Positions 26,017 to 51,702 of a stretch of 64,000 nucleotides of DNA are shown here, one piece after another. Under the pieces are notes generated by a model that worked only from the letters and a program-made list of their open reading frames with translations, ran no database searches and was not told where the DNA came from. Origin of the DNA: Olivibacter sp. XZL3 (GTDB lineage Bacteria > Bacteroidota > Bacteroidia > Sphingobacteriales > Sphingobacteriaceae); contig NZ_SBJH01000059.1 in the NCBI RefSeq assembly GCF_004368405.1, positions 1-64,000 on the forward strand. The letters are read 5' to 3'. The first letter of the stretch is position 1; each line of letters opens with the position of its first letter. Position numbers and translations under genes: made by a program.

Positions 26017-27096
26017 ATGCAAAATCATAGTCGTGCTCTGGGCAAAGCAGATAATGAAATAGATATAAAGCAATTTGTATTGGTATTATTGGAATGGTGG
26101 CACTATTTTATTTCAAAAGCTAAGATCATTACTGTGGCCGCAATTCTTGGCGGTATTTTCGGATTCGGATATAGCATTTTAAAAGGGACTACCTATACAG
26201 CTTCATTATCATTTGTGTTAGAAGAACAAAGGGGTGGATCGTCAAATGGCTCTATGTCTAGTTTAGCCTCACTTATAGGTGTTAGTCTGGGAGGAATGGA
26301 AGGTGCGGGATTGTTTTCAAGCGATAATATAATGGACTTTATTAAGTCCAGACGTATGGTTGAAAAGACGTTGCTATCTAAAATAGATAGGGAGAGCGGT
26401 GGCGAACTTCTTGTAGATCGTTATATTAAGATAAATGAGTTGGATAAAGATTGGAATCGTAATCCAAGATTGATAAATTTTCATTTTGAGCCAGGTGGCG
26501 CGGAAAATGTAATTCAGGACTCAATATTATCAAAAGTTTTTAAAGCGATAGTCGAGAATGACCTAGTTATTGACAAGCCCAACAAAGGTAGTTCAATAAT
26601 GCAGCTAGACGTAACGAGCAGCGATGAGCAGTTTGCAAAAGTATTTACTGAGGTACTTATAGACAATGTTACTGAGTTCTATATTACTACTCGAACTAAA
26701 AAATCGTTGGAGAATTTGTTGATTTTAACAAAGCAAGTAGATTCAATTCGACGGGAGTTGAATAACGCTATAGGAGGGGTAGCGCACGCTTCCGACGCAA
26801 ATCCAAACCCGAATGCAGCTTTCAAAGCGCTTAGAGTACCTTCTCAAACACGCGAGGTCGATGTACAGGCAAACGGAGCAATTTTGAATGAGTTAGTCAA
26901 ACAGAAAGAACTTGCAAGGTTGAATCTTCGGAACGATAAACCTTTAATACAGATTTTGGACAAGCCTAAATATCCACTTGAAAAAAACATGCCTAATAAA
27001 GTGCTACTAACTTTATTAGGAGCTGTTTTAGCTGGGTGCTTATGTGCAACATTTCTTTTTGTAAGTCGGTTATTCAACATAACAATTAAAAATTAA
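26017..27096 (+). CDS. Wzz-type chain-length regulator without kinase domain (set B)
   Basis: A 359-residue paralogue of the Wzz at 17844, with a transmembrane helix near 38-58, the shared segment LFSSDNIMDFIKSRRMVEK near 98, a ASDANPNPNAAF motif near 258, and PLIQILDKPKYPL before the C-terminal helix (about 328-350). There is no kinase domain. It follows the SLBB exporter by 24 bp, as in classical wza-wzz order. From here on, base composition drops visibly toward AT. It probably sets chain length for the set B polymer. Confidence 0.9.
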   Translation: MQNHSRALGKADNEIDIKQFVLVLLEWWHYFISKAKIITVAAILGGIFGFGYSILKGTTYTASLSFVLEEQRGGSSNGSMSSLASLIGVSLGGMEGAGLFSSDNIMDFIKSRRMVEKTLLSKIDRESGGELLVDRYIKINELDKDWNRNPRLINFHFEPGGAENVIQDSILSKVFKAIVENDLVIDKPNKGSSIMQLDVTSSDEQFAKVFTEVLIDNVTEFYITTRTKKSLENLLILTKQVDSIRRELNNAIGGVAHASDANPNPNAAFKALRVPSQTREVDVQANGAILNELVKQKELARLNLRNDKPLIQILDKPKYPLEKNMPNKVLLTLLGAVLAGCLCATFLFVSRLFNITIKN

Positions 27097-45845: not shown

Positions 45846-46024
45846 CTGCTCGCTCCAGCGCTTAATGGATCCATAAAGTATGCACAAGAACGCTGTCTTA
45901 TGGTAGTAAGAGAATCAGTTCAATGGTACGATGACCGCGAAAATTATGTATTTTTACATAAAAATGTGTTGCGCCAAATTTAAGGTTCTCTTAAAACTTT
46001 GGTATCCTGATAAATGTGAATGCT

Positions 46025-46774
46025 ATGTTTTCTATATTTAAGTCTGCTCCCGTCCATTTTCCTTTAGGCGAACTGCTCCATACTGATATGCATTCCCATA
46101 TCCTTCCAGGCATTGACGATGGTGCGAAGGATCTTGAAAGCTCCCTGAAGCTTATAGGCGGTTTGAAAAGTATCGGGTATCAACAATTTATCGCGACGCC
46201 ACATATCTATGCCGAAGTCCATCCCAATACGGCCGCAAGTATTAGCGCTGCCTATGAGCGGTTGAAAGAGGAGGTGGAACGGCAGCAGCTGGAAGTGCCA
46301 ATCCGCTATGCTGCGGAGTATATGCTGGACGAGCAGTTTGAGGCTAAGCTGGGGAATGAAGCACTTTTACCACTGCAGGGCGATTTGGTACTGGTCGAAA
46401 CCATGTTTTTTTCAGAGCTTCCCAACTTCTCGAATGTCCTTTTCAAGATACAGACGGCAGGCTATAAGCCGGTAATTGCCCATCCCGAACGCTATCACTT
46501 TATGTTTGGTAACCTCGCAAAGGCGGAAGATTTAAAAAGTAGAGGTGCCCTTTTACAGGTCAATGCCCTCTCGCTTACCGGTTATTACGGTAAATACGAA
46601 AAGCAAACGGCTTTAAGCCTTTTAGAAGCAGGGCTGGTAGATTTAATCGGTACCGATTTACATCATGATCGTCACCTACAAAAATTGCTTAATTATAAAA
46701 TTGATCGCAAAATGCGGCGGATGCTGGAAAATGCGCCGCTGTTGAATTCCAGCCTTTGCCTGCAGAGATCTTAG
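46025..46774 (+). CDS. PHP-type tyrosine-protein phosphatase (CpsB/YwqE family)
   Basis: A 249-residue metal-dependent phosphatase of the polymerase-and-histidinol-phosphatase fold, which dephosphorylates tyrosine kinases that control capsule export. The metal sites are intact: TDMHSHILPGIDDG near 20-33, IATPHIYAEVHP near 60, EYMLDEQFE near 100, PVIAHPERYHFM near 151 and GTDLHHDRH near 211. ATG at 46025 is preferred over GTG at 46016, which adds only three residues. No BY-kinase gene is visible in the window, so the partner is elsewhere. A degenerate paralogue lies at 47481-48164 on the other strand. Confidence 0.9.
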   Translation: MFSIFKSAPVHFPLGELLHTDMHSHILPGIDDGAKDLESSLKLIGGLKSIGYQQFIATPHIYAEVHPNTAASISAAYERLKEEVERQQLEVPIRYAAEYMLDEQFEAKLGNEALLPLQGDLVLVETMFFSELPNFSNVLFKIQTAGYKPVIAHPERYHFMFGNLAKAEDLKSRGALLQVNALSLTGYYGKYEKQTALSLLEAGLVDLIGTDLHHDRHLQKLLNYKIDRKMRRMLENAPLLNSSLCLQRS

Positions 46775-46893: not shown

Positions 46894-47253
46894 ATGTTTA
46901 AATTCAACAAATTACCATGCTATGCCGTCATCGGCCTGGTTCTTTTATGCAGTGCCGCAACGAGCGCTCAGGCGCCAAATCCATTGGACAAGAAGGTGAC
47001 TTTCAAGGTTTATGCCGCCGAGCGCTTAGAAAGTGTGTTCTTTAGGTTAGAATCCCATATGGGCGCCAGGCTCGAGTTTAACGTCCTCGACTTTGCCTCG
47101 TTAAAGGCCAAGCCGGCGGACTACCAAGCGGCGGCTGTAAAGGACGTACTTGAAGAGCAGCTCGACGGAACTGATTTTAAGTACGAGCTAAGAAATGGAA
47201 AACTCATTCTTTTTAAAAAAGAAAAGGCTCCAAGTAAAAAGGAAACGCGCTGA
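46894..47253 (+). CDS. stand-alone STN-domain periplasmic protein
   Basis: A 119-residue protein with a signal peptide (LVLLCSAATSAQA) followed by one STN (secretin/TonB short N-terminal) domain of about 85 residues. The domain end AVKDVLEEQLDGTDFKYELRNG is characteristic. The STN domain usually sits at the front of SusC-like receptors or FecA-type sensors; here it stands alone with only a short Lys-rich tail (KKEKAPSKKETR). It has its own promoter. It may be a receptor remnant or an adaptor that signals by protein contact. Function unknown. Confidence 0.75.
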   Translation: MFKFNKLPCYAVIGLVLLCSAATSAQAPNPLDKKVTFKVYAAERLESVFFRLESHMGARLEFNVLDFASLKAKPADYQAAAVKDVLEEQLDGTDFKYELRNGKLILFKKEKAPSKKETR

Positions 47254-47480: not shown

Positions 47481-48164
47481 TTAAAGAATCTCTTTGTTTT
47501 TTATCTGGGATGAGCTCAGCAGTTTCTGCAATCTTTTCGAAAGAAAAAGCTCGTTAATCATCATCTGCTCATCTGCATTCCGGGCGCCCGATCCGATAAA
47601 ACTGACGTCTTCGTCTTTTAATAGTTTTTGGGCCAAGCGTTTTGCCTCCGCTCCGTTCGTTCCCAGGAGCGAGTTCATATCTGTCTGCAACAAGCAGCCC
47701 AGGGTGCTGATCCGATGAATGTTCCGGTAATTGTCCAGCAGGCAGCTGTAAGTTTCCGCTTTGGTGAGCACCGGTATAAGATTTTTATTCACCAAGAAAG
47801 CAACAGCATCTTCCAGATCGCTGCTTAAGATGTCGTTATCGGCTTCTATGAAGATGTATTTACCTCTTACCGACTCCAGTTTTGGTCCGTTCAGCTCCGA
47901 GCCGTCCTCCTGCAAGTGATAAAGCCGTACTGTACGAAGCGGCAGCGCCATGTTGAACGTAGAGGCATCTATCGTTTCTTTATTCACTGCGCCTATGATG
48001 TAGTCATAGCCCGAATTGCGCAGTTCTTCCGTCACTTCATTGGTGTTGAAATAGCCGAAACCTGGTTTCAGCAGATCGACATGTATATCGGCAAAGAGTA
48101 TGCTTCCAATCCCGTTGGCCGGATACGTTGCCGAGTGCTTAGGTAATATTGAAAACATGTCCAT
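47481..48164 (-). CDS. degenerate PHP-phosphatase-like protein (probable pseudo-enzyme)
   Basis: A 227-residue protein that lines up along its length with the intact phosphatase at 46025, but with its metal ligands replaced. DMHSH becomes DIHVD, the AHPER motif becomes TKAET (VLTKAETYSC), and TDLHHD becomes SGARNA. The conserved spacing and LGCLLQTDMNSLLG versus RGALLQVNALSLTG make the relationship clear. It should not be a phosphatase. It may bind a kinase or phosphotyrosine substrate without catalysis, or regulate the intact copy. The frame is open and it has a -7-like element upstream, so it is probably expressed. Confidence 0.75.
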   Translation of the reverse strand: MDMFSILPKHSATYPANGIGSILFADIHVDLLKPGFGYFNTNEVTEELRNSGYDYIIGAVNKETIDASTFNMALPLRTVRLYHLQEDGSELNGPKLESVRGKYIFIEADNDILSSDLEDAVAFLVNKNLIPVLTKAETYSCLLDNYRNIHRISTLGCLLQTDMNSLLGTNGAEAKRLAQKLLKDEDVSFIGSGARNADEQMMINELFLSKRLQKLLSSSQIKNKEIL

Positions 48165-48197: not shown

Positions 48198-48205
48198 CAA
48201 ATTTA
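48198..48205 (-). promoter_or_regulatory. possible -7 element for the degenerate phosphatase gene
   Basis: CAAATTTA on the plus strand reads TAAATTTG on the minus strand, a full match to TAnnTTTG, about 34 bp before the start at 48164. No clear -33 partner. Confidence 0.4.
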
Positions 48206-48307
48206 CGATAATTCTTGCTGTGATACTTTTTTAATCGTGACTTTGTGTTTAAAACGCTGTTTTCGGTATGTAAATGGTAGTAAATGGTTTGATTTATTAT
48301 AAAAGCC

Positions 48308-49003
48308 TCAAACAATCAGCATACTAGCCTTCAAATCGGGGAAAAAAGTTCTTCCGATAGGGAGATGCGTTCCATCCAGGAGCAGCAGTTCTAACTGATT
48401 GAAGGACTGGATGTGATCGCGATTTACCAGATACGATTTATGTACTCGCATAAAAGGATGTCCCAAAGGAAGCTTTGCTTCAAACTCTTTTAAATTCTTC
48501 CGGAGGGCTACGCGGCGATCACCGATTTTAAGTTCTACGTAATTCCCGTTCGCCTTTATGAAGACGAGATCTTTTAGCGATACACGATGCTTGTTCCTGC
48601 CCATGGGTAAGAATAATCCCGGTTCTTCCTCTTTTTGAAAGTGACTGATGGCCATCTCTATCGCCGCGTACAGGTCTATTTTTGTGCAAGGCTTAATCAA
48701 ATATCCATAAGGGCGTGTTTCTTTTGCCTGTTCAATCATGGCCGGATCGGCGTAAGAGGTGGTGAAAATAAAAGGAATCTCTTTTGCGCGCGCAACCTTC
48801 GCAATGTCGATGCCCGTCCGGCTATTCCGAAGTCCGATGTCTAGCAGCAAAAGATCCGGTCTTTTTTCCCTGATCGCACAAACAGCCTCTTCGTAACTGG
48901 AGGCAATGCCACAAACGGTGTAGCCAATTTCTTCGAGCATAGCTTGCGTATCCATCGCAATGATAAGCTCGTCTTCAACTATAAGAATTCGTAAATTTTG
49001 CAT
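48308..49003 (-). CDS. LytTR-family response regulator
   Basis: A 231-residue two-domain response regulator: a receiver domain (residues about 4-120, phospho-acceptor Asp55 in LLLLDIGLRN, Lys104 in YLIKPCTK) and a C-terminal LytTR DNA-binding domain (about 138-231, with VFIKANGNYVELKIGD, MRVHKSYLVNRDHI and HLPIGRTFFPDLKASM). It starts directly after the histidine kinase stop (49004), so the two are co-translated partners. LytTR regulators in Bacteroidota often control envelope or surface genes; here they lie within the polysaccharide region and may control it. Targets are not evident. Confidence 0.92.
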   Translation of the reverse strand: MQNLRILIVEDELIIAMDTQAMLEEIGYTVCGIASSYEEAVCAIREKRPDLLLLDIGLRNSRTGIDIAKVARAKEIPFIFTTSYADPAMIEQAKETRPYGYLIKPCTKIDLYAAIEMAISHFQKEEEPGLFLPMGRNKHRVSLKDLVFIKANGNYVELKIGDRRVALRKNLKEFEAKLPLGHPFMRVHKSYLVNRDHIQSFNQLELLLLDGTHLPIGRTFFPDLKASMLIV

Positions 49004-49864
49004 CTATGTTCCAATAAATTTAATGTTAAAAATGGAGGCATCGTTAAATTCGTAATCGATTGTTCCTTGTAGTTGTTTAGTCAGGTTGGTTAGCAACCGT
49101 AGGCCCATCGTGCCCGGGCTTTGCCAGTTTACGTCGGAGCTTATCCCCTTGCCGTTATCCCTATAAAGCAAGTGGTAGCGCCCTCCCTCTTCGGACGATA
49201 ACTGGATGTGTAGTTTTAATTGCTCTTCTGTGGGTTTGGCATATTTGATCGAGTTGGTTATCAATTCTGTGATGAGAAGCCCATAAGGGATCACCGTCTC
49301 CGCTGTCATAAGCGCCGTACAGACGTCGATTTCATTGCGCACTTCGCGTCCATGTTCGGCGTAACTTTTAAGGATGTAATCTACCAGATCATTGGTATAG
49401 TGTGCTAAATCAATAAGGCCTTCGCGATGGTCAGTGTATAGTTTTTGATGCACCAGCGACATTGACTGTAAGCGCATTACAGCGTCTTGAAGCGCTAATT
49501 TCACATCCGGATGATCGCTCGAGCGACGGTACATGTTCAGTAAAGAGGACACAAATTGCAGGTTGTTTTTAACGCGGTGATACGATTCGTCCGGTAAAAG
49601 GGAACTCGAATGACGTTCCTGAATGAGCGCTGTATATTTTTCTTCCAGCTGTTTGTGAACTTCTGTTAATTTTTTAATGCGTAATTTGTTATTCCGATGG
49701 CCTATAAACAGGGCGACTAGCAGCACAAGAAATGCACAAACAATCCAAGGGGCATCCCAATTGAGCCATACCGCGCTTCCAGAAAGACTAAAGGCAAATG
49801 TGGAACTGGAAAATCCGTTTATCATGTTTGAAATCAACAAAATCTTTGTTAAATAAAAAGCCAT
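49004..49864 (-). CDS. HisKA_2-type sensor histidine kinase
   Basis: A 286-residue membrane kinase with one transmembrane helix (about residues 39-54) and a coiled-coil linker. The phosphoacceptor region is DESYHRVKNNLQFVSSLLNM with His96, of the HisKA_2 type often paired with LytTR or similar regulators. The ATP-binding part shows LLITELITNSIKYAKP (N box) near 195 and DNGKGISSDV and GTMGLRLL (G boxes) near 235-255. No extracellular sensor domain is present, so the signal is probably membrane- or linker-based. The start is uncertain; ATG at 49864 gives a short leader before the helix, and a later Met at residue 14 is an alternative. Confidence 0.88.
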   Translation of the reverse strand: MAFYLTKILLISNMINGFSSSTFAFSLSGSAVWLNWDAPWIVCAFLVLLVALFIGHRNNKLRIKKLTEVHKQLEEKYTALIQERHSSSLLPDESYHRVKNNLQFVSSLLNMYRRSSDHPDVKLALQDAVMRLQSMSLVHQKLYTDHREGLIDLAHYTNDLVDYILKSYAEHGREVRNEIDVCTALMTAETVIPYGLLITELITNSIKYAKPTEEQLKLHIQLSSEEGGRYHLLYRDNGKGISSDVNWQSPGTMGLRLLTNLTKQLQGTIDYEFNDASIFNIKFIGT

Positions 49865-50286
49865 TTACTTGTTAAGCTGTTTAAAAAGCATTTAATTTTC
49901 ATCGTTGCAGGCAGCATGAAATAGAGTCAAAAATCATCGTTCAGCATGGTGGAGCTTTTAAGACAGCGTCCTGTTTTTCAAAGTCCACTGCGAAAACAAT
50001 AGGTATAGCGAAAAATCATGCCATTTTTTCACGGATTGTGGAAAAAAATAGAAAAATTGAGTATTTAAGCTTTAAACATTGTTAAACCGATAATTTATTG
50101 AGGAGTAATTTAGTGTAAATCGTGCGAAAACGAGCATTTTTTAAGGATTGGGCGGGTAATAGCACAATTTTCTAACAGATTCAAGAGGAAGTTGTTGTTT
50201 TTTTGAAAATCATCGAATGGTACGGTATTTGTAGGGCGCTTTCACGTAAATATACAGAACTGTTCATTTTTTCTCGCGATGATCAT
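49865..50286. other. non-coding stretch between divergent genes
   Basis: About 420 bp between the histidine kinase and the WcaJ-like gene, AT-rich. It should hold promoters for both directions; the best plus-strand match is TAATTTAG at 50106-50113 (one mismatch) without a well-spaced -33. A weak hairpin, TTTTTTCAC/GTGGAAAAAA, lies at about 50024-50047. An in-frame TTG at 50203 could extend the downstream gene by 28 residues, but those residues are not family-like. Confidence 0.4.
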
Positions 50287-51702
50287 ATGGATTTAAGTAG
50301 CCGTTACCTATTCCACTTTACCCATGTGGTAAGTGATTTTTTCTTTATTATCCTTTCCTTCCTTCTGGCCGTACGATTTAGTAACTACGCGTATTTTTAT
50401 GAGCTCGGTTTATATGACGCCGGCTTTTTGTTGTTTTTGCTTTGCGGTTGGTACGTTACTGCCCGGTCGAATCGCCTATACGAAGATAAGATACAGGAAA
50501 ACCAGATGCGCGAGCTGTTTAAGACTGCCAATACCATTTTATGGCAAATCATGCTGGTCGTTTTATTCATCTTTGCCGTTAAAGAGGACGATTATTCCCG
50601 GCGCTTTGTTGTCGTTTACGGTTGCCTCATTGCTTTTTTCATCCCACTCAGCAAGATCGCATTAAAGCGCGTATACCTCATGGTGTTTCGTCACGGCTAT
50701 TTGCGTAGAAGAGCATTGGTAATCGGCGGAGGGGAGCACGGACAACAATTCTGTAAATACATCAAAGAAAACAAGTATTATGGGTACGAGGTGGTCCGGC
50801 ATATAAAGGGGGCGCTCAGTTTTGCCGAGTCCGACAGTGCTATGGGCAGGCGTGTATTAATGGTGGGCGATCAGCCCTTGGGCGATATTCATGATATTGA
50901 CGAAGTGTTCATTGCGGATGGCCCCGATACGCCTTATAGCACCAAGGAGATTGCTTCTGTTTTAAGCGAATACGCGGTTCGCTTACGTGTTATTCCCGAT
51001 GTTTTTCAAATGAATAGTCCCGGTTCCTATGCCTTCAGCATGATCGGTGGTTTTCCGCTGTTGAGCGTGCGTAATGAACCTTTGGAAGATATCTATAACC
51101 GGGCTGCCAAACGGGCCTTTGACATTTTTTTCAGTCTGTTCGTATTGGTTTTTGTTTGTTCTTGGTTGTTTCCCATCATTGCGCTGCTTATTAAGTTGGG
51201 CTCCAAAGGACCGGTATTTTATAAGCAGGAACGTTGGGGTAAACGGAACCGACCATTTTTGTGTTACAAGTTTCGGTCGATGTATGTGAAAGCGCCCGAT
51301 ACGAATCAGGAGGGCAAATTTCAGCAGGCGAAAAAGAACGACCCCCGTATTACGCCTATCGGACGTATTTTGCGAAAAACAAGCTTAGACGAATTTCCAC
51401 AGTTTTTGAATGTACTTTCGGGAGAGATGTCGGTTGTAGGCCCCAGGCCGCATGCGTCCTTAATGAATGTAGAGGCCGCCTATGTCGTGAAAAATTACCT
51501 CGTTCGGCATCAGGCCAAACCCGGCATAACAGGTTGGGCTCAGGTGAACGGACTACGGGGCGAATCGAGCAATCCGAACCTTTTAAAAGCCCGTATCGAG
51601 CATGATATCTGGTATATTGAGCACTGGAGCTTCCTTCTTGATCTTAAAATTATCTTTCTCACCTTTTGGCGAATGATCATTGGCGACAAGCAGGCTTATT
51701 AG
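50287..51702 (+). CDS. wcaJ: WcaJ/WbaP-type undecaprenyl-phosphate hexose-1-phosphate transferase
   Basis: A 471-residue polyprenyl-phosphate glycosylphosphotransferase that would start a repeat unit by moving a hexose-1-phosphate (usually glucose) to undecaprenyl phosphate. There are four N-terminal helices, a Rossmann-like middle (RRALVIGGGEHGQQFCKYI), and the catalytic sugar-transferase domain from about residue 270 with KRAFDIFFSLFVLVF, YKQERWGKRNRPFLCYKFRS, RKTSLDEFPQFLNVLSGEMS and VGPRPHA, then GITGWAQVNG. ATG at 50287 is preferred to TTG at 50203. It is the third initiating transferase and is followed by the repeat-rich spacer. Confidence 0.93.
   Translation: MDLSSRYLFHFTHVVSDFFFIILSFLLAVRFSNYAYFYELGLYDAGFLLFLLCGWYVTARSNRLYEDKIQENQMRELFKTANTILWQIMLVVLFIFAVKEDDYSRRFVVVYGCLIAFFIPLSKIALKRVYLMVFRHGYLRRRALVIGGGEHGQQFCKYIKENKYYGYEVVRHIKGALSFAESDSAMGRRVLMVGDQPLGDIHDIDEVFIADGPDTPYSTKEIASVLSEYAVRLRVIPDVFQMNSPGSYAFSMIGGFPLLSVRNEPLEDIYNRAAKRAFDIFFSLFVLVFVCSWLFPIIALLIKLGSKGPVFYKQERWGKRNRPFLCYKFRSMYVKAPDTNQEGKFQQAKKNDPRITPIGRILRKTSLDEFPQFLNVLSGEMSVVGPRPHASLMNVEAAYVVKNYLVRHQAKPGITGWAQVNGLRGESSNPNLLKARIEHDIWYIEHWSFLLDLKIIFLTFWRMIIGDKQAY

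Follow-up and report, generated by a model that had tools for sequence, protein, structure and literature searches.

The gene at positions 47481-48164 on the minus strand of the window (the whole 64,000-nucleotide stretch analyzed here, from a contig of Olivibacter sp. XZL3) encodes a full-length homolog of the CpsB/YwqE-type PHP tyrosine phosphatases. The 227-aa product belongs to this family by sequence and by predicted fold and has lost most of its metal ligands; judged from its residues, it is nearly certainly catalytically inactive. The most likely reading, which we hold tentatively and with a partner that we infer, is that this pseudo-phosphatase is controlled by a two-component system and modulates the Wzc/phosphatase cycle without catalysis.

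Family membership, predicted fold and active site

The reading frame is open, as the first-pass annotation had stated, and it lies on the minus strand, a point absent from that annotation. Pfam family PF19567 (CpsB_CapC) matches the product with E = 9e-16 and 58.4 bits, above the curated cut-off of 27. For comparison we used the neighboring intact CpsB/YwqE-type phosphatase (46016-46774, plus strand), which keeps all ligands, belongs to another exopolysaccharide cluster and matches the same family with 160 bits. Direct BLASTP alignment of the two proteins gave 20% identity (E = 6e-8), and a profile of the orthologs aligned with a profile of the intact proteins across 221 columns, corresponding to the full length, at E = 4.8e-33. 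When PDB sequences were searched with phmmer, the matches were YwqE and CpsB only, with E of about 0.006-0.009.

Structure prediction and comparison with YwqE/CpsB, proposed in the first-pass annotation as a check, returned the PHP fold, a distorted TIM barrel. The AlphaFold2 model (alignment of 63 sequences) has a pLDDT of 89 and a pTM of 0.86, and its top Foldseek matches in the PDB were 3qy6, 2wjd and 3qy8 (YwqE and CpsB; E 2e-9 to 3e-7, TM about 0.66), with other folds far behind. The model depends on the alignment with the family, since a run using two degenerate sequences only, without intact relatives, failed (pLDDT 34). The homology evidence is independent of the fold model.

Ligand assignments were taken from the Cps4B structure and transferred by alignment. 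Cps4B binds metal M1 through His5, His7, Glu80 and Asp199, M2 through Glu80, Glu108 and His136, and M3 through Asp14, His42 and His201, and has Arg139 as its catalytic key residue (PMC2777267). The alignment indicates that at least seven of the nine metal ligands are replaced or deleted in the window protein and that only the equivalents of His5 and Glu108 are retained. His7 is replaced by Asp, Glu80 by Leu, His136 by Lys, Arg139 by Thr, Asp199 by Gly and His201 by Arg, while Asp14 and His42 belong to loops (DDG and TPH, respectively) that have been deleted or replaced. The motif changes described earlier (DMHSH to DIHVD, AHPER to TKAET and TDLHHD to SGARNA) proved letter-perfect. The accompanying statement that overall spacing was kept is exact for the C-terminal half, where 58 residues lead from the H136 to the D199 equivalent in both proteins, but does not extend to the stretch from motif I to the Glu80 position, which is about 22 residues shorter and has lost the DDG and TPH loops.

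The same losses recur in the copies from other species. At positions H5, H7, H42, E80, E108, H136, R139, D199 and H201, the four copies read HD-LEKTGR, HD-LEKQGR, HD-LQKQGC and ND-LQRRGI. Other homologs read HHHEEHRDH at these positions in 136 of 136 distinct sequences and in 19 of 19 more. All nine residues checked are thus kept in every one of the 155 other distinct family members classified, a set in which 80 contig loci were fetched using a motif-I pattern allowing His or Asp at the His7 place and are partly selected for motif I, while the whole-genome matches were not so selected. Taking the ligands and the catalytic R139 together, the survivors among the four copies are H5 (three copies), E108 (two) and R139 (one, the copy in genome G003), so by sequence these are not active family members. 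His136 is lost in all four; in Php1 of P. gingivalis, dephosphorylation of the cognate kinase Ptk1 requires H155 and R158, the counterparts of H136 and R139 (PMC6759763). The window protein would appear to work like a pseudo-phosphatase while failing the catalytic definition of its family.

Conservation and origin

Conserved copies in the same place in related genomes, another check suggested at the outset, were found in three of the four other Olivibacter species, with the same synteny. These relatives are Olivibacter jilunii (NZ_LR027850), Olivibacter domesticus (NZ_FOAF01000006) and G003; of the five Olivibacter genomes examined, one lacks the gene. All three orthologs have open frames and the same ligand losses, and the identities are 61%, 53% and 39%. 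Despite the lost active site the four species show purifying selection, with a dN/dS of 0.17 for the closest pair of orthologs (differences by codon position 0.31/0.20/0.51) and saturated dS for the remaining pairs. The orthologs with shared losses, the purifying selection and the predicted PHP fold strongly support the view that the protein has been retained in a non-catalytic form. Decay or artifact was considered and rejected on the basis of the orthologous open frames and the dN/dS. Across the four genomes the pseudo-phosphatase is 39-61% identical versus 55-78% for the LytTR regulator, and is thus the faster-evolving of the two.

Outside the genus, no copies were detected in a sample of 400 genomes of the family, where scores fell from 323 to 96 bits, or in a sample of 395 genomes of the class, where the best other match (94 bits) was intact. 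A quick tree grouped the four degenerate copies together (SH-aLRT 99) at the end of a long stem and gave them no firm place among the intact copies. The term paralog, used in the first-pass annotation, is right for the family, but the gene is probably not a recent copy of its intact neighbor: a recent duplication is unsupported at 20% identity, and the tree, with its long stem, does not pair the two. In G003, the initiating sugar transferase has a second, shortened copy at L044:8835-9872, whose match contains an in-frame stop. This copy is convergent with the pseudo-phosphatase gene and might mark an origin from a transferase-phosphatase pair.

Gene neighborhood and promoter

In all four genomes, the gene immediately follows a HisKA_2 kinase and a LytTR regulator that share its strand. 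Divergent from this set, again in all four, is an initiating sugar transferase heading an exopolysaccharide operon. In the window, the regulator (REC and LytTR domains, 231 aa, with syntenic orthologs) occupies 48308-49003 on the minus strand, and the short histidine kinase (286 aa, with a transmembrane part predicted by eye and HisKA_2 and HATPase, and no recognized sensor domain) occupies 49004-49864 on the same strand. The transferase (Bac_transf) is at 50203-51702 on the plus strand as the first gene of its operon, and its listed TTG start probably lies too far upstream. In O. jilunii, O. domesticus and the window genome, the operon was read through to its end, which carries Wza and the tyrosine kinase Wzc. 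In the window genome, Wzc lies just past the window, at contig position 69563-71935, about 22 kb away, and has a tyrosine-rich tail. The stretch read in G003 stops before the end of the operon, and a kinase-family match was found a few kilobases further on.

The intact phosphatase varies in position. It follows the transferase in O. domesticus and G003, lies on the far side of the pseudo-phosphatase in the window, and was not found within the 20 kb read around the pseudo-phosphatase in O. jilunii; the exopolysaccharide operon itself holds no intact phosphatase in O. jilunii and the window genome. Because of this variation, the constant partner of the pseudo-phosphatase is the two-component pair, and its link to the adjoining intact phosphatase is incidental. 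The regulator's nearest homologs in other genera have no such phosphatase copy adjoining.

Several other features of the region were recorded. The first polysaccharide cluster contains a Wzz-like chain-length protein (26017-27096, weak GNVR match) without a kinase domain; the second cluster, unlike the first, has a complete Wzc kinase at its end, past the window. An ORF of 119 aa at 46894-47253 has an apparent signal peptide and resembles, by eye, a stand-alone STN (secretin/TonB N-terminal) domain, with no Pfam match. In the divergent spacer between kinase and transferase, the sequence AAAAATCATGCCA (50011-50023), expected 0.02 times by chance in the window, is conserved in the window, O. jilunii and O. 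domesticus and not in G003.

The pseudo-phosphatase gene has its own conserved promoter. The plausible -7 element mentioned in the first-pass annotation is TAAATTTG at 48198-48205 on the minus strand, of the Bacteroidota type TAnnTTTG, and the orthologs carry TAAATTTG or TATATTTA. A LytTR-like direct repeat, TTTACATACCGAAA-N7-TTTAAACACAAAG, with a 21-bp period, lies at 48241-48274 on the same strand (core pattern 48243-48274). Within the spacer between regulator and pseudo-phosphatase, a 32-bp block has 19 of 32 columns identical in the four species, compared with 2 of 32 on each side (ungapped). At each copy, the direct repeat TTTAnAyACA recurs with the 21-bp period, 35-36 nt upstream of the conserved -7 box. 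All four promoters show the repeat at 8 to 11 of 13 positions, but shuffle tests of single sequences give the repeat weak statistics (0.01 to 0.33). Published LytTR sites consist of a pair of approximately 9-bp direct repeats, 10 to 13 bp apart, upstream of the promoter (PMC11347149), and the 48241-48274 repeat is a probable response regulator site.

A full match to the core pattern was found once per genome, always at the pseudo-phosphatase, and these four matches arise by construction, since the pattern was made from those sites. The Olivibacter genome without the gene has no full match, and no other was found in the rest of the window, the operon-side spacer or the whole genomes, where matches had two to three mismatches and occurred at about the control rate. 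The informative facts about the element are its conservation, its spacing and the absence of other copies.

Proposed role and alternatives

The pseudo-phosphatase is probably a regulator rather than an enzyme, because it has been kept without an active site, always beside the same signaling genes and heading the same operon. We propose that the HisKA_2 kinase would phosphorylate the LytTR regulator, which would then bind the 21-bp direct repeat and activate the pseudo-phosphatase promoter. The product, still CpsB-shaped, would bind either the intact phosphatase or Wzc, at its tyrosine-rich tail, and would not hydrolyze phosphate. Such binding could shield the phosphotyrosines or titrate the phosphatase, which would shift the Wzc phosphorylation cycle and alter polymer output. 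With the pseudo-phosphatase as its output arm, the two-component system would act on the capsule machinery through protein-protein contact and not through transcription alone. Against this proposal, any shared surface for docking on Wzc may be altered, since the equivalent of the TPH loop is gone and the copies evolve faster than the regulator; the lack of an intact phosphatase within the operon in O. jilunii and the window genome and the weak repeat statistics also count against it. The earlier suggestion, that the protein acts on a tyrosine kinase or on the intact enzyme as a decoy or a regulator, is possible and comes close to this explanation. A precedent for control by a CpsB-binding protein is CcpS, which binds and inhibits CpsB in Streptococcus suis (PMC10148854).

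The main rival, which we consider doubtful, is that the pseudo-phosphatase is an input: docked on the kinase or the regulator, it would report the tyrosine phosphorylation of Wzc or of its own Tyr139, and so feed the status of polymer assembly to a sensor-less kinase. The kinase of the locus is indeed only 286-334 aa long, with no recognized sensor domain, in the four genomes (the window and loci L042, L043 and L044), whereas most of its nearest homologs elsewhere lie in open frames above 600 aa and the homolog in the Olivibacter species without the pseudo-phosphatase has 631 aa with TPR repeats. The constant gene order of kinase, regulator and pseudo-phosphatase would also suit an input. Tyr139 is invariant in the four copies and aligns with Tyr159 of Php1, a residue next to the essential arginine that is phosphorylated by Ptk1 in P. 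gingivalis (PMC6759763). However, Tyr139 is invariant in the active enzymes too and may be structural, and a conserved promoter of its own with a regulator-like site fits an output better, though feedback loops exist.

It is improbable that a different activity has been kept or gained, such as metal-free binding of phosphate, phosphosugar or phosphotyrosine, or hydrolysis with other ligands in a remodeled pocket. The pocket does seem constrained rather than random, because His28 and Glu/Gln104 are retained in most copies, and all four have Asp where the second His would be and a basic residue (Lys, Lys, Lys, Arg) where His136 would be. Nevertheless, the D199 equivalent is Gly and that of E80 is Leu in all four copies, the H42 and D14 loops are gone, and the sequence reveals no complete metal site of another kind. 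A stabilizer or scaffold without a signaling role, for example in mixed oligomers with the intact phosphatase, has a known parallel in degenerate structural PHP domains such as that of E. coli DNA polymerase III, which has lost its metal ligands and contributes to stability (PMC3666897); we regard this as quite improbable, as the linkage to the two-component system is constant and that to the intact enzyme variable. A decaying gene without function, as could be argued from the lost active site, the faster evolution than the neighboring regulator and the absence from one of five Olivibacter genomes, is very improbable and contradicted by conservation: open frames in all four species, a dN/dS of 0.17, a conserved promoter, shared substitutions, and a long common stem followed by constraint.

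The pseudo-phosphatase shares with CpsB, YwqE and Php1 its full-length homology, predicted PHP fold, exopolysaccharide locus setting, N-terminal MFSI and C-terminal segment. It differs from them in lacking at least seven of nine metal ligands and the DDG and TPH loops, and in being tied to a two-component system rather than being the phosphatase of its operon. E. coli DNA polymerase III alpha has a PHP domain that likewise keeps the fold in a non-enzymatic role after loss of the ligands, but this domain is part of a polymerase, does not stand alone and has no tie to tyrosine phosphorylation (PMC3666897). CcpS is a possible functional analog, a non-phosphatase that tunes the CpsB/CpsD cycle, but it is under Ser/Thr kinase control and is not presented as a CpsB homolog (PMC10148854). 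Eukaryotic pseudophosphatases (e.g., PTPRU and PHLPP2) are phosphatase-family proteins that lack catalytic activity and have been retained as regulators, but they belong to other families and other kingdoms.

Bacterial pseudo-phosphatases appear to be little studied, and open-text literature searches returned no description of one from the CpsB/YwqE family. Olivibacter is a small group of soil bacteria. We see the chances as evenly balanced that its locus represents a two-component system with a dead tyrosine phosphatase as dedicated partner, in which protein binding couples histidine-aspartate signaling to the tyrosine-kinase cycle of polysaccharide assembly, and the first described PHP/CpsB pseudo-phosphatase. 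If confirmed, histidine-kinase signaling would reach the tyrosine-phosphorylation cycle of capsule and exopolysaccharide assembly directly, and the locus would offer a simple genetic test of whether competition, and not catalysis, tunes that cycle.
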